Positions 54,506 to 64,000 of a stretch of 64,000 nt of DNA are shown here, in pieces. The stretch spans positions 1 through 64,000 of the forward strand of contig JAHBSH010000002.1 of assembly GCA_019639215.1 (NCBI GenBank), in the 5' to 3' direction. Source of the DNA: Acidobacteriota bacterium (GTDB lineage: Bacteria > Acidobacteriota > Blastocatellia > Pyrinomonadales > Pyrinomonadaceae). Each line of letters begins with the position of its first letter. Position 1 is the first letter of the stretch. Position numbers and translations under genes: made by a program. The notes under the pieces are model-generated. The model had not been told where the DNA came from. It saw only the letters and a program-made list of their open reading frames with translations, and did no database searches.

Positions 54506-55180
54506 CTAGAAATAGCGAAAATGTCCTGTGATCTCCCAATCGAAAATACGGTCTTCGAGTTTTGCTCCGGCACCGATGTTGTGGATTATCATGTATCGGC
54601 CGGTTTCTTTGTTTTGTTGGTTTGAGACAAGGCCAATATGGGTCATTCCTTTTCCGTTGAGGTCCCATGAAACTATGTCACCCGGTTGATAATCTCCGTT
54701 CTCACCTTTCAACGGCAAATTCTTTTTCTTTCTTGTAAAATAGGTTTGAAGGTTTGGTACACGGCGATGATCTATGTTGGTATCAGGCTTCTTTAGTCCC
54801 CATTTTTGAGGATACGAACTGAAGTTTTCTTTCATATCCTCATGAACCTCTTTTTGCAGATCAAGTCCGGCTGAACGCATTGCCCTAATGACGACATCGG
54901 TACAGGCTCCTGTCTCAGATGGAACATCACCGCCGGGATATGAGATCACGAAGTAATCCTGCGTATATTCTGTTGTCGTCTCGGTCTGCTTGAACCCGCT
55001 TTCAAGCATCTTCCTTACCTGTTCTGATGCGATGCGGCCAAGCGGCGGTTCTTCGACCGAATGCACAGCATCAAGGTCTGAAACATTGTTGGAAAGCCTT
55101 GGTTGCGACAGGCTTCCGCCACAGCCGAATATAAGAGCCGCGATAAATACTGTCGGAGGCAAAAAGATCAACTTATTCAT
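54506..55180 (-). CDS. DUF1287 lipoprotein
   Basis: A 224-residue protein. The start is followed by a lipoprotein signal (FIAALIFGCGG, lipobox FGC). The body is a DUF1287 domain: YVISYPGGDVPSETGACTDVVIRAMRSAGLD, DTNIDHRRVPNLQTYF, YQPGDIVSWDLNGKGMTHIGLVSN. This family has an NlpC/P60-like papain fold with C, H residues visible (C in GACTDV; H in GMTHIG), so it may be a cell-wall peptidase or amidase; the activity is not proven. Its stop is one base from the convergent membrane-protein gene. Confidence 0.8.
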   Translation of the reverse strand: MNKLIFLPPTVFIAALIFGCGGSLSQPRLSNNVSDLDAVHSVEEPPLGRIASEQVRKMLESGFKQTETTTEYTQDYFVISYPGGDVPSETGACTDVVIRAMRSAGLDLQKEVHEDMKENFSSYPQKWGLKKPDTNIDHRRVPNLQTYFTRKKKNLPLKGENGDYQPGDIVSWDLNGKGMTHIGLVSNQQNKETGRYMIIHNIGAGAKLEDRIFDWEITGHFRYF

Positions 55181-58814: not shown

Positions 58815-59870
58815 TCATTGTCCAAGTAGCCGTCTGAATTTCAGCCCGCGTTTAACTATTAGAATAAATCCAATGAGTGCCCAGAAAAGCATTCTTCCTT
58901 TTCTGATGATCGCTATCGTAACACCGACTCCTGCCCCGATAGCCAATGTCTCGGCCACCATTTGAGATCCCGCCTCATCAACGCCCAGAAGGAACGGGAT
59001 CAGCTTAAATACTATCGATATGAGCCTGTTCACTGATTCCAGCAGAAAGGAATTTAGAAATGTTGCTCCGCCTTCGGTGATGCGTGACAGAATGAACCAA
59101 ACCTCAAGTATGCCAAGCAGGTGAAATGAACATTCGAGTAGAATGATTGGAAGAAACCTTTTAGGATGATGACGATAAAAACCGTAAACAAGATTTTCAA
59201 ACAAACGAACCTGCAGACGCCCGCTTTCCAGAACGCCCTTTAAGACGCCTTTTTTATACAGCCATTCGCAAAACTCGCTGGCAAAATGCCATTGCCTAAT
59301 GACCATCAGTATCAGGAAAATAAGCCCAGCGATCATTAGCCCTATCAGAATATCTATTCCGATCGCAACTGTCGGATCTATATCGAAAGTTCGAACAAAT
59401 GTCAGAGCTCCCAAGATCAGCAGCACGCTCGTCGTCATGCTGTAAAATAAATTCTCTGTCGCTACAGATGACAGCCCGACGACCAATGGAACTTGACGTC
59501 GAACAGCCACAGCTTTAGCAGTTCCGCTGACAACGATACCAATTGGTATTACAGTACTCATCATCTCCCCAATGATGACTGCAGGTATGGTATCTCGAAT
59601 ATTAAGAGAATAGGGCTGATATACAGATAATGCCCACGCTGATGCTCGTAAACATATCCGCAAAAAGAAAATGCCGAGGATGACCGCAAAACCGAATACG
59701 CCAAATCGGGAAACACTTTCAGCGATCTGGCCGACACCCGCGGAATAGACAAAGCCTGCAAAAAGGCCGATACCGAAGATGGTCGCTATGAGCGCGAGCA
59801 TCTTCAAGCGGCCTGAAAGTTCGGGCTTTATTTTCTGCTCTTCAGCATTTTCTGGGCTTTCAAGGTTCAA
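58815..59870 (-). CDS. lysylphosphatidylglycerol-synthase-type/flippase-like membrane protein
   Basis: A 351-residue inner-membrane protein with about eight helices, starting with a soluble charged stretch of ~25 residues. It resembles the UPF0104/YbhN and AglD-like flippase-like domain: an RLKMLALIATIFGIGLFAGFVYSAG start, GEMMSTVIPIGIVVSGTAKAVAV, and a late FKLIPFLLGVDEAGSQMVAETLAIGAGVGV, where the VDEAGS block is typical. Such proteins move or modify lipids. The substrate is unknown. Confidence 0.72.
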   Translation of the reverse strand: MNLESPENAEEQKIKPELSGRLKMLALIATIFGIGLFAGFVYSAGVGQIAESVSRFGVFGFAVILGIFFLRICLRASAWALSVYQPYSLNIRDTIPAVIIGEMMSTVIPIGIVVSGTAKAVAVRRQVPLVVGLSSVATENLFYSMTTSVLLILGALTFVRTFDIDPTVAIGIDILIGLMIAGLIFLILMVIRQWHFASEFCEWLYKKGVLKGVLESGRLQVRLFENLVYGFYRHHPKRFLPIILLECSFHLLGILEVWFILSRITEGGATFLNSFLLESVNRLISIVFKLIPFLLGVDEAGSQMVAETLAIGAGVGVTIAIIRKGRMLFWALIGFILIVKRGLKFRRLLGQ

Positions 59871-59964: not shown

Positions 59965-60411
59965 TCAAGATGCATCGCTTCGGGCTGACCAAACCATCTG
60001 CATCACTGTATCTCGTGCATACACACCTGAACCTTCGGATGTGATCCCCTCTTTAAGGAATTTTACATAGCCATTGGTGTTAGAACCCGAACGGCCGAGG
60101 TGCAAATGCTGTCCGCTGGTATTGGTATGCGGACCATGCCAGATAAATTCATATCTTTCACCTGTTTTGAAAAACTGCGATGCAAACACTTTGATATGCA
60201 GATACGCCGTTGCGTCGTCATAGTCCTGCACATGAAAATCAGCTGCTCGGTTCTGCAAATGCAGGCTCTTCGAGCCTGCACCGATGGACAATGCTGTACC
60301 GCGATCTCCCGATGTTACATTTACATCCTTACCGAAGTATTCCGAAATGGCTTCAAGGACATTTTTAACCTCTTCATCAGAAACCGTTCTTCCGTTATAG
60401 TTTACTGCCAT
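59965..60411 (-). CDS. small M15-like peptidase domain protein
   Basis: A 148-residue protein. The start at 60411 has AGGAGG six bases upstream; a longer frame to 60561 is unlikely. It has the M15-type pattern: GDRGTALSIG, then SLHLQNRAADFHV (H51 and D58 as zinc ligands), and later WHGP plus GQHLHLG (H102/H104), with E88 a possible catalytic acid. M15 enzymes are D-Ala-D-Ala or L-Ala-D-Glu peptidases that act on the cell wall. No signal peptide is seen, so export is unclear. It is 13 bases after the 449-residue gene. Confidence 0.68.
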   Translation of the reverse strand: MAVNYNGRTVSDEEVKNVLEAISEYFGKDVNVTSGDRGTALSIGAGSKSLHLQNRAADFHVQDYDDATAYLHIKVFASQFFKTGERYEFIWHGPHTNTSGQHLHLGRSGSNTNGYVKFLKEGITSEGSGVYARDTVMQMVWSARSDAS

Positions 60412-60424
60412 TTCACCTCCTGTT

Positions 60425-61774
60425 TTATTTCGAAGTTGAAGGAACGTGATACGGTTTTCCTTTGGTCGGTACTTTTGCGGCTGCCGCTTTTCCTTCCGGC
60501 GATGTCCATGAAATGCCGTAAAAGAATCCTTCATTCGGCAATGGCAAAAGACGATGGTCAACAGAGCTTCCTCCTGTGGGAACTTCTGCTTCTATCAAGT
60601 AACCGTTATAACCCAGATTTACATTGCCGGACTTTTGCTCCGGATGAGCTATAGGCATTCCGTCGCTGCCGGTCTTCCAACGAAATGTTCTTATGGTTTC
60701 CCCATTCTGCCTGACAGAACATTCCCAGTTGCCTTTATGATCAGCCATTCCAAGTCGGTTATTTGCAGGGTCACCTTTAATCAAAAGCGGTAGTCGAAGC
60801 TGGTATTGAACGAACGAAACTTCATCCATATACTCATTGGCACGTTTATATTGCGGCGCAAGACGATCTGTATAGATGCCCCATTCGACTCGCATCATTC
60901 TCAGGCGATTTTCATCCGAATAAGGGCTTGGGCCGGGAAAATTAAGGAAGGTTCCGTTGACGGAACATCTCGTGGCCATGCTTCTTAAGCGGTTCACCTG
61001 CTTTTCAGGCGAAATGTTGAAGTATATTTCTATCTCGCTGTTAAAATCGCCGTCACCTGCTTCACGAAAATAGTTCGGCCCTAAACGCTGGTTCATACCT
61101 ACCGGGCGAACATAAAGAATAGCGGCGGATGTTTCGGCATGACGCTGAATGTAGTAGTGCGGAACATCAGGAACAGGAGCGGTCGCCAAACCGCGAACGC
61201 GGGCCGCCTCGCGGACATCTATCTTATATGTCCTCAACAGCTTTTCCTCATCTGTATTGCCATTTATGAAATAGACCTTTACATCCATTTTTCCCGTATC
61301 CTTTATCGCCTTTGTTTTGTCCTCGCAGCCACGTTGGTTCGTCAAAATATAGTCATCTTCAGGCCGCGTGCGGTTCTCGGGTACAGGATCTTCGCCCTTG
61401 CGGTAAGGTGTTCCTTCGCATCGAACTACGGCAAGTTCCCGTCCGGCTTTGCTGACAATGAGTTTGAACGCACTTCTATTCGGAACGGTTCCGAACATCC
61501 GTAGATTTGACTTCAGATACCAGCCGATTCCTACCTGACGGCGCAATTGGGTGCTGTACTCCTGTAATGGTTCCGCATCAAAAAAGGTAAACCCGTCATC
61601 AATGACCATCTGCCGATTGGAACTTTTTCCGCTCGAATCACGGCCGTTTTCTTTGGCGGGGCTTTTGTCACGGGAGATGGGGACGATCTTGGGGAGTTTC
61701 AAGTTTATCTGCGCCGGGCCGGCGGCGGCAAGAAATAATATCGCAAACAAAGTGACTAATAGTTTTATGTTCAT
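60425..61774 (-). CDS. exported protein of an unrecognised paralogous family (copy 2)
   Basis: A 449-residue protein with a signal peptide (LLVTLFAILFLAAAGPAQ). It shares a clear pattern with the 472-residue protein at 62245: IDDGFTFFDAE (against MDDAYTYFDAE), GWYLKSNLRMFGTVPNRSAFK (against GWYMRSNLRLLGTFPERSAFR), FINGNTDEEKLLRTYKIDV, YYIQRHAE and the C-terminal GFFYGISWTSPEG with YHVPS. No catalytic motif is evident. The two copies lie on one strand with a small lipoprotein gene between them. Function is unknown. Confidence 0.7.
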   Translation of the reverse strand: MNIKLLVTLFAILFLAAAGPAQINLKLPKIVPISRDKSPAKENGRDSSGKSSNRQMVIDDGFTFFDAEPLQEYSTQLRRQVGIGWYLKSNLRMFGTVPNRSAFKLIVSKAGRELAVVRCEGTPYRKGEDPVPENRTRPEDDYILTNQRGCEDKTKAIKDTGKMDVKVYFINGNTDEEKLLRTYKIDVREAARVRGLATAPVPDVPHYYIQRHAETSAAILYVRPVGMNQRLGPNYFREAGDGDFNSEIEIYFNISPEKQVNRLRSMATRCSVNGTFLNFPGPSPYSDENRLRMMRVEWGIYTDRLAPQYKRANEYMDEVSFVQYQLRLPLLIKGDPANNRLGMADHKGNWECSVRQNGETIRTFRWKTGSDGMPIAHPEQKSGNVNLGYNGYLIEAEVPTGGSSVDHRLLPLPNEGFFYGISWTSPEGKAAAAKVPTKGKPYHVPSTSK

Positions 61775-61805
61775 AATGCGTGTTGTTTTCTCTTAAAATA
61801 AGTTC

Positions 61806-62231
61806 TTAATGACAGTTTGTCGAAAGCGTGTGCCGTCCCTTATTCGCTTCTGCCTTGCAACGGGCGGCGCAGTTTCGTGTTACGTGATCGAGAATAGCTT
61901 TGTCCTCGATCACAGCATCTTCATTCGTGGGCTTGCGTTTGAATTTTCGCTCGAATTCTTTTGCGGCCTCCGATGCAAGCCAATCGCGAACCATAGCCTT
62001 AGCGCGATCATCTTCGGCTAGACAAAATTTATTACAGGCGTTTAACCCGGCTTGTTCTTCATCTTTTGCCTTTCCTTCATAGGTTCTTCCATTCACGCTG
62101 ACGGTTCCTTCGCACGAAGAATCATTCGTGCCTGGGCCGAGACAGCCAAGCGCCGCAATCGCCAAAAGCATTATGACGATCAGCAAATTCGTACGGCCGG
62201 CAAACGGCGAATTTCCTTTAACTTGGTTCAT
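61806..62231 (-). CDS. small lipoprotein with twin CX3C motifs
   Basis: A 141-residue protein. The ATG at 62231 has GAGGAG eight bases upstream. A signal with lipobox AALGC (C30) points to a lipoprotein. The mature part has C40, then CNKFC and CAARC, two CX3C motifs about 60 residues apart on predicted helices, which could be joined as disulfides into a helical hairpin, and a last Cys near the C terminus. No known family. It lies 13 bases after the 472-residue gene and 31 bases before the 449-residue gene, so all are one operon. Confidence 0.6.
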   Translation of the reverse strand: MNQVKGNSPFAGRTNLLIVIMLLAIAALGCLGPGTNDSSCEGTVSVNGRTYEGKAKDEEQAGLNACNKFCLAEDDRAKAMVRDWLASEAAKEFERKFKRKPTNEDAVIEDKAILDHVTRNCAARCKAEANKGRHTLSTNCH

Positions 62232-62244
62232 ATGGCTCCTCGGT

Positions 62245-63663
62245 CTATTTCGCCTTGTTGGATGGGATGTGGTATCGGTCTCCTTTTTTCGGAAGACGGC
62301 CTTCCATAGATCTGCCTTCGGCTGTTGACCAAGGAATTCCGTAGAAAAGACCGGAATTCGGCATCGGCGACAGGCGATAGTCGAACACGGCTCCACCTGC
62401 GGGCAACTCCATGTCTACAAGAACCGCATCGTGAAAGAGATTGATATTTCCGCTCTTTTGCTCTGCGTGTACGGCGATCTTGCCATCTTCGACCTTCCAG
62501 CGAAATGTTCTCAGCGTTTCGCCGTCTGCGACGATACGGCATTCCCAATATCCGGGATGATCTTCGATCTTCACGTATCTGATGCCGGAGGTGTTGCCGC
62601 CCGTATAGATCGGCAGCTCGAAAACCAAGCCCTTAAAAAGGACCTTATCAACGTACGGGCCTCCGGTTTTGTATTTTGCCGCAAGGCGATCCGTATAGGT
62701 GCCGACCTCGTCAACGCGGCCGGACGAGTAACTTTTCACATTGTCCCGGTTCCTGTTGTCCGAAAGATCGATCGGCTGTCCGTTGACCGCACAGCGGGCG
62801 AACATACTATTCGGCATATACTTGCCTGCTTGTGGTGAATAAGATGTGTAAAGACGCAGCGTTCGAACATCCCTTTCCCCATAACCTCTATCAACCGGAT
62901 CGCCGTTATAGCCGCCGCTCCGCAGCGTATAATCGAAATATGCGAATGCAACGGCGGATTCGGCGTGGCGCTGAATGTAGTAGCTGGGCACGTCCTGTTC
63001 CGGCCTGGAAGCGTTGCCGCGGACATTTGTCGCACGGTGAACATCTATCTTATATGTGCGTACCAGTTTTTCTTCGTCCGTGTCGCCATTGATGAATAAC
63101 ACATCGACATCCATCTGGCCGGTTTCTTTAGTAACTACATCTTCCTTAAAACAGTGCAGATCTGTACTCATATAATCGTCGTAATTCAACGAATATTTAC
63201 GCATCGGATTTGATCTTAGCTTTTCGTCTTTTGCCTTTGTTTTAATTACTCCGTCGCAACGAACGCTCGTCAGCTGCCGCCCGCTTTTCTTGAGTACAAC
63301 GCGAAAAGCACTTCGTTCAGGAAACGTTCCCAAAAGCCGCAGATTCGATCTCATATACCAACCCACGTCCTGATCGCTTAGCGAACTCGAAGCGGTCTTG
63401 TTCTTATGCTCGGCATCAAAGTACGTATAAGCGTCGTCCATCACCATTTGTCGATCGTAAGTTTTCAATCCTTTTGTGGAGAACAGCTTTTTTTGATCTG
63501 GTTCTCCGGCCGCTCCCGGCGTTGTACCGTTGGTTTTATTGACGGTCTCTTGAACACTATCCTTTTTTGGAAGCTCCACTTTTGGCAAACGCAGCCTTAT
63601 CTGAGCTGATACCGAGACCGAGAAGATCATCAAGATCAATATCGCTGTTGTTCTGTACATCAT
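62245..63663 (-). CDS. exported protein of an unrecognised paralogous family (copy 1)
   Basis: A 472-residue protein with a signal peptide (TTAILILMIFSVSVSAQ) and an RLRLPKVELPKK start repeated in paralogue 2 (NLKLPKIVP). The core blocks match the 449-residue protein at 60425, as listed there; the loops differ (for example MSTDLHCFKEDV in place of LTNQRGCED). Both have one conserved Cys in this region. The last 80 residues carry GLFYGIPWSTAEGRSMEGRLP and YHIPS, a strand-rich end domain. The pair probably arose by duplication within this locus. Family and function unknown. Confidence 0.7.
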   Translation of the reverse strand: MMYRTTAILILMIFSVSVSAQIRLRLPKVELPKKDSVQETVNKTNGTTPGAAGEPDQKKLFSTKGLKTYDRQMVMDDAYTYFDAEHKNKTASSSLSDQDVGWYMRSNLRLLGTFPERSAFRVVLKKSGRQLTSVRCDGVIKTKAKDEKLRSNPMRKYSLNYDDYMSTDLHCFKEDVVTKETGQMDVDVLFINGDTDEEKLVRTYKIDVHRATNVRGNASRPEQDVPSYYIQRHAESAVAFAYFDYTLRSGGYNGDPVDRGYGERDVRTLRLYTSYSPQAGKYMPNSMFARCAVNGQPIDLSDNRNRDNVKSYSSGRVDEVGTYTDRLAAKYKTGGPYVDKVLFKGLVFELPIYTGGNTSGIRYVKIEDHPGYWECRIVADGETLRTFRWKVEDGKIAVHAEQKSGNINLFHDAVLVDMELPAGGAVFDYRLSPMPNSGLFYGIPWSTAEGRSMEGRLPKKGDRYHIPSNKAK

Positions 63664-63700
63664 TTATTTCCTTTTTATTTAATTAGTGAATGTTCCTGAT

Positions 63701-64000
63701 CTAAGGCTGCAAAGCCTGGCGAAATTCAAGAACAGAAGCTGCATCATCACCTGCGATCAGATGGCAAAGAGTGGCTTTGTTATCAGGCCACGTGCAAAAT
63801 CCGTAGTAAGTTTGCTTGTCGTCTTGGAAAGAGCCATTAACGCCTTTTTGGCTCACCCGCACCTTGTCTAAGATCTTCGCTCCCTTTTCCGCCCTCTCTC
63901 TTAATAGACGGGTCAGATAAACCGCTGCTTGAGCCTTTGTTTTGTATTCAGCTACTGTGAAGGTAATGGTTCGGCCTCCTGAAACATATATACCTTTAGC
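63701..64000 (-). CDS. C-terminal end of a hypothetical protein (partial)
   Basis: A frame entering from beyond the window end reads 99 residues and stops with TAG at 63701-63703. It contains a charged helix (LTRLLRERAEKGAKILDKV) and a strand/Cys part (YYGFCTWPDNKATLCHLIAG), ending in FRQALQP. The two cysteines are 10 residues apart. It is upstream of copy 1 on the same strand with a 37-base gap, so it likely belongs to the same operon. No family recognised. Confidence 0.55.
   Translation of the reverse strand, partial: AKGIYVSGGRTITFTVAEYKTKAQAAVYLTRLLRERAEKGAKILDKVRVSQKGVNGSFQDDKQTYYGFCTWPDNKATLCHLIAGDDAASVLEFRQALQP

Follow-up and report, generated by a model that had tools for sequence, protein, structure and literature searches.

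The window analysed here, bases 1-64000 of the 67,889-base contig C48, comes from a metagenome-assembled genome of the Pyrinomonadaceae (Acidobacteriota, Blastocatellia). At its end lies a minus-strand five-gene operon encoding, in order, the membrane protein TM220, paralogue A, the probable lipoprotein LIPO, paralogue B and the peptidase M15 (Table 1); A and B form one family, here called PARA. The short intergenic gaps (TM220-A 37, A-LIPO 13, LIPO-B 31 and B-M15 13 bases) support a single operon, as had been proposed in an initial annotation made from the sequence alone. The open reading frames, coordinates, 13/31/13-base gaps and motifs given there are correct, and the further gene that it saw leaving the window upstream is TM220. 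Two of its reading frames, however, were listed with starts upstream of the likely true ones. LIPO begins with the ATG at 62231, the upstream GTG of the listed 196-residue frame being probably spurious; the ATG of M15 is preceded by a strong Shine-Dalgarno sequence, AGGAGGTGAA, and the TTG that would give a 198-residue frame is probably spurious as well. A scan for promoters and terminators returned no more sites than shuffled sequences did. Signal peptides and lipoboxes were assigned by visual inspection throughout, without SignalP.

Table 1. Genes of the operon and its surroundings (window coordinates unless stated otherwise).
Feature	Coordinates	Strand	Remarks
TM220, single-transmembrane protein with extracytoplasmic C-terminal domain, 220 residues	63701..64000; contig C48:63704-64363	-	extends past the window edge
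Paralogue A, PARA family, 472 residues	62245..63663	-	signal peptide by eye; two Ig-like domains in model
LIPO, Cys-rich probable lipoprotein, 141 residues	61806..62231	-	loose lipobox ALGC
Paralogue B, PARA family, 449 residues	60425..61774	-	signal peptide by eye
M15, M15_3 / LAS-type peptidase, 148 residues, no signal peptide	59965..60411	-	Pfam match and motif
LPG_synthase_TM / HpnL-like membrane protein	58815..59870	-	94 bases downstream of M15
Regulator, 741 residues: Trans_reg_C, membrane segment, PD40 repeats	upstream of operon	divergent	
PTITIAEREG-repeat protein, 119 residues	56146-56505	-	three repeat copies, then a short C-terminal domain
DUF1287 (CHAP/amidase-like) putative lipoprotein	54506-55180	-	another possible wall enzyme

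M15 passes the Pfam cut-off for PF08291 (M15_3; 31.7 bits against 23.2), in agreement with the M15-like domain first noticed. Its other matches are PHROG endolysins (E 2.4e-9) and, at a weak level, endolysins of Proteus phages; a search of the PDB gave only meaningless weak matches. The zinc motif of LAS enzymes is H-x6-D plus HxH. In M15 it consists of H51, D58, H102 and H104, which are kept in the full-length relatives; H51, D58 and H104 are the predicted zinc ligands and H102 the predicted active-site residue. The N-terminus, MAVNYNGRTV, has no signal peptide, and the relatives likewise start without one, a feature that the initial annotation could not reveal. Because of the profile matches, the LAS motif and the absent signal peptide, M15 is very probably a peptidoglycan enzyme unable to reach the wall via Sec or Tat. 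Its relative in genome G065 is a protein with LysM, PG_binding and M15_3 domains. Other relatives lie between phoH and atpD in G019, G031 and G074 (L122:8814-9275, L123:10030-10611 and L167:5595-6035; truncated in G074), close to the ybeY site of the LIPO/PARA-BLIP modules of G101 and G102 described below.

The operon neighbours of M15 are predicted to be exported: A and B carry signal peptides (in A with a predicted cut between MMYRTTAILILMIFSVSVSA and Q), LIPO a lipobox and TM220 a membrane segment. Together with the peptidoglycan-peptidase domain and the partial conservation of the neighbours in other genera, these export signals argue for a role at the cell envelope, as originally suggested. 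The twin CX3C motif reported for LIPO is real (CNKFC and CAARC), but is part of a six-cysteine pattern that is joined by a probable lipid-anchor cysteine. Each of the seven cysteines is present in 20-21 of 21 relatives; the first follows a hydrophobic stretch in a loose lipobox, usually [ASTV]-[LA]-[GA]-C, and the other six include both CX3C pairs. From these seven kept cysteines we infer one lipid anchor and three disulfides. In the window, G019, G031 and G104, LIPO has a PARA gene nearby; elsewhere it also occurs without PARA. TM220, with one transmembrane helix and a large outer domain, has no family match in the profile libraries searched; its relatives stand beside or near PARA in G012, G080, G105 and G078. 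A further class of exported partner, lipoproteins with BLIP domains, adjoins PARA in G102 and G076 and LIPO in G101. Next to ybeY, at the same place, G102 has the regulator with PARA and BLIP genes, and G101 the regulator with LIPO and BLIP genes.

The 449- and 472-residue proteins are genuine paralogues with 41-43% identity, and 47 invariant columns are common to A, B and nine relatives. Searches of Pfam, NCBIfam, PHROGs, PADLOC and PDB sequences returned nothing for either; these empty searches speak against a known-family identity, and within the libraries searched the initial placement of the pair outside known families holds. A PARA match, strong in 25 cases, was found in 27 of 162 genomes from the class; almost all of these belong to the Pyrinomonadaceae. 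A set of 396 genomes drawn across the phylum gave nine matches, eight of them in Pyrinomonadaceae and the ninth marginal. The viral contigs and plasmids searched contained no relative, and a phage or plasmid origin was rejected on these zero matches. An AlphaFold2 model based on 22 sequences consists of two beta-sandwich domains (pLDDT 82, pTM 0.85), the C-terminal domain modelled alone being of lower quality (pLDDT 73). Foldseek and VIA-align retrieved only generic immunoglobulin (Ig) folds, mostly antibodies and major histocompatibility complex molecules, reaching at most Z 3.6 with the whole model and 3.1 with the C-terminal domain, and no informative structural relative was among these matches. 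The model thus suggests two Ig-like sandwiches as a fold class only, which is uninformative on function because the PDB matches are generic and Z stays below 4.

In the gene tree, A clusters with sequences of G019 and G078, and B with those of G080 and G012, with full support throughout. These positions rule out a fresh tandem duplication: A and B are two old lineages whose split predates the genus and which either came together later or stayed together. In G012, the closest relative, this locus consists of TM220, a single PARA gene, M15 and LPG_synthase_TM, without LIPO, and its single PARA is a chimaera, whose first 60-odd residues follow A and whose remainder follows B at ~94%. This structure fits the expected product of a recombination between A and B that would have deleted the body of A, LIPO and the start of B. 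TM220, the body of B, M15 and neighbours are under purifying selection, with ratios of nonsynonymous to synonymous substitution rates (dN/dS) of 0.016 for M15, 0.041 for the B body and 0.11 for TM220. Tandem PARA pairs also occur in G008 and G088 (L015:8644-11389 and L117:3-2837), which belong to different genera; in the tree, each copy groups with its counterpart, which means that the pair predates the split or was transferred as a unit.

Comparison of loci shows that the operon of the window is one combination of a wider mix-and-match module. Neighbours are partly conserved across other genera, but the gene set is reshuffled between loci rather than fixed, and because of this reshuffling the four genes of the window are no obligate complex; absences are soft, since several genomes are fragmented. 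PARA directly precedes an M74-like protein with PG_binding in G078 and an alpha/beta-hydrolase (esterase) with LysM in G032 and G087, is followed 26 bases on by a VanY-like protein with PG_binding in G115, and shares an operon with a DUF5675-like protein in G080; the M74, thioesterase and DUF5675 profile scores fall below curated cut-offs. The DUF5675-like gene is clear in only two genomes of the class, in both of which it is in a PARA cluster, and the literature on DUF5675 holds phage annotation only. A wall- or lipid-hydrolase-type gene is present in 6 of 23 PARA operons as against 0 of 30 control genes on the same contigs (p=0.004, rising to 0.03 when the DUF1287 control is counted), a comparison in which G012 and the window were scored as a single operon, G032 and G087 share an enzyme type, the controls are few and the hydrolases had been noticed before the test was designed. 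A divergent regulator gene (Trans_reg_C, membrane segment, PD40 repeats) heads 8 of 22 PARA operons; its family has only 8-42 copies per genome, and the association has a binomial p of ~1e-9 at an assumed rate of 1.6%. Where the esterase-LysM gene occurs without PARA (G006, G009, G023), it is also accompanied by the regulator and other secreted genes. In G019, G031 and G074, PARA (with LIPO in two of the three) lies between preT-like and preA-like genes (L019:8375-11665, L020:7960-11784 and L110:8229-12661), in what looks like an operon for reductive pyrimidine catabolism. A PTITIAEREG-repeat protein like that of the window is also encoded in G012 (L014:16431-16856).

The genome of the window carries a cluster for a type VI secretion system (T6SS), with TssA, B, C, F, G, ClpV and VgrG over the cut-offs. 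TssC is present in 22 of the 25 PARA genomes and in 52 of the 137 others (p=4e-6) or, counted by genus, in 10 of 11 and 16 of 42 (p=0.002), and all eight genomes with the M15 family have it; the association of PARA with T6SS is a correlation. Delivery by a phage-like sheath of an extracellular contractile injection system (eCIS) was rejected, as no sheath matched in this genome. After VgrG in the host T6SS cluster (L133:44-1803, G000:C77), two candidate effectors are encoded, a 173-residue protein with a C-terminal PG_binding-like stretch and a 413-residue protein with an HExxH motif. Comparable T6SS effectors are on record: the Acinetobacter effector Tpe14 combines M15_3 with LysM (PMC6833914), and WHIX effectors of the PG_binding plus M15 and the MepA-like type have been described (PMC12135965). 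Such wall effectors lack signal peptides, and their immunity proteins are mostly exported (PMC6833914, PMC12135965); among Acinetobacter peptidoglycan effectors, seven of nine immunity groups have signal peptides (PMC6833914).

On the analogy with these recorded effectors and exported immunity proteins, we favour, at somewhat less than even confidence, the reading that the operon encodes a wall-hydrolase cargo, probably delivered by T6SS, together with exported, lineage-specific Ig-like immunity or antagonist proteins that would guard against it or regulate it. M15 would act in the periplasm, probably of other cells, with the T6SS carrying it as cargo across the envelope into that of a neighbour; A, B and perhaps LIPO would bind such enzymes and inhibit them within the producer's own periplasm, as T6SS immunity proteins do, and the Trans_reg_C/TM/PD40 regulator may control the operon. 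Several exported families, one family with several enzymes and recombining copies would fit polymorphic effector-immunity loci. The earlier idea of an envelope system without a name is partly supported. More tentatively still, PARA may be a family of periplasmic Ig-like proteins, particular to Pyrinomonadaceae, that act as immunity proteins or antagonists and pair with unrelated wall and lipid hydrolases in swappable modules under a propeller-bearing membrane regulator.

Several observations weigh against a role as T6SS cargo and immunity. Within the genus of the window, the TssC association does not reach significance (7 of 8 against 25 of 33, p=0.66). Neither C48:58500-67889 nor the PARA loci read show a VgrG, PAAR or Hcp gene, and none of the T6SS clusters read contains a relative of PARA, M15 or LIPO. 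M15 is a single domain without a recognised delivery domain (MIX, WHIX and others); a link to vgrG, PAAR or hcp or a delivery domain is not universal among cargo effectors. At most PARA loci the operon lacks a hydrolase, three PARA loci are inside a pyrimidine-catabolism operon, and the M15 relatives of G019, G031 and G074 stand isolated beside atpD. For an immunity protein, PARA is large. Moreover, G115 has no TssC, and its PARA-adjacent VanY-like enzyme has its own signal peptide; because of this case and of the loci lacking a hydrolase, PARA may instead partner wall enzymes more generally in the periplasm.

A second explanation is an endogenous envelope module, in which the regulator senses the state of the envelope and induces secreted Ig-like and lipoprotein factors that aid the cell's own wall hydrolases in remodelling or repair, M15 leaving the cell by lysis or an unknown route. 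We consider this explanation unlikely, though a serious competitor: it is favoured by the Sec-exported enzyme of G115, by the divergent ToxR/CadC-like regulator at the head of PARA operons, and by LPG_synthase_TM, a gene of uncertain membership that adjoins module genes in three genomes (G012 and G104 among them). However, four of the five hydrolase types beside PARA lack the signal peptide that a periplasmic enzyme of the cell itself would need, and the patchy distribution and odd genus grouping in the gene tree suggest mobile genes rather than a core wall function.

That the exported proteins and M15 are functionally unrelated and merely co-transcribed seems quite improbable. In its favour, no gene pair is common to all loci and most PARA loci lack a hydrolase, but PARA is repeatedly linked across genera to LIPO, TM220, the DUF5675-like and esterase-LysM genes and the regulator, which is hardly chance. 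Least credible is a domesticated phage-like cassette for programmed lysis, with TM220 as holin, M15 as endolysin and LIPO as a spanin-like protein. M15 does resemble phage endolysins, down to the missing signal peptide, and shares its operon with a transmembrane protein and a lipoprotein; yet TM220, with its single helix and large outer domain, does not resemble known holins, such a cassette would leave the two large secreted PARA proteins without a role, no PARA relative is found in viral contigs, and the stretch read around the operon holds no phage genes.

If PARA is such a lineage-specific family of immunity or antagonist proteins, the modules that combine PARA with M15, M74-like, VanY-like, esterase-LysM or DUF5675-like proteins would represent an undescribed antibacterial arsenal of an abundant soil lineage. 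Little is known of the weapons and wall enzymes of Pyrinomonadaceae and related lineages, which abound in soil; in the literature library searched, the family and type VI secretion come up together in a single paper, and we found no description of an exported PARA-type family paired with varied wall and lipid enzymes. Should the pairing be real, PARA could serve as a marker for new wall-active toxins in Acidobacteriota, and would illustrate how a single exported family can be coupled to several unrelated hydrolases.

Among known systems, M15 shares with family M15/LAS and the phage M15_3 endolysins (PF08291, PHROG 894) the passed cut-off, the H-x6-D and HxH motif and the lack of a signal peptide. 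It differs from them by its place in a chromosomal operon with secreted genes, and, with an HxH arrangement instead, it lacks the acidic residue that other M15 enzymes have at the ExxH position. The BLIP/DUF3862 lipoproteins (PF07467, PF12978) are exported, have an enzyme-inhibitor fold and stand beside PARA or LIPO in relatives, but are outside the window's own operon. The regulator has the order Trans_reg_C, membrane segment, PD40 in common with ToxR/CadC-type membrane regulators with a TolB-like propeller, and is here divergent from the operon. With T6SS effector/immunity pairs such as Tpe14 and WHIX, the operon shares a signal-less M15-type hydrolase, exported neighbours and a T6SS in the genome. 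It departs from them in lacking both a VgrG, PAAR or Hcp neighbour and any recognised delivery domain, and in having lineage-specific Ig-like exported partners in two copies and a TM/PD40 regulator as operon head.

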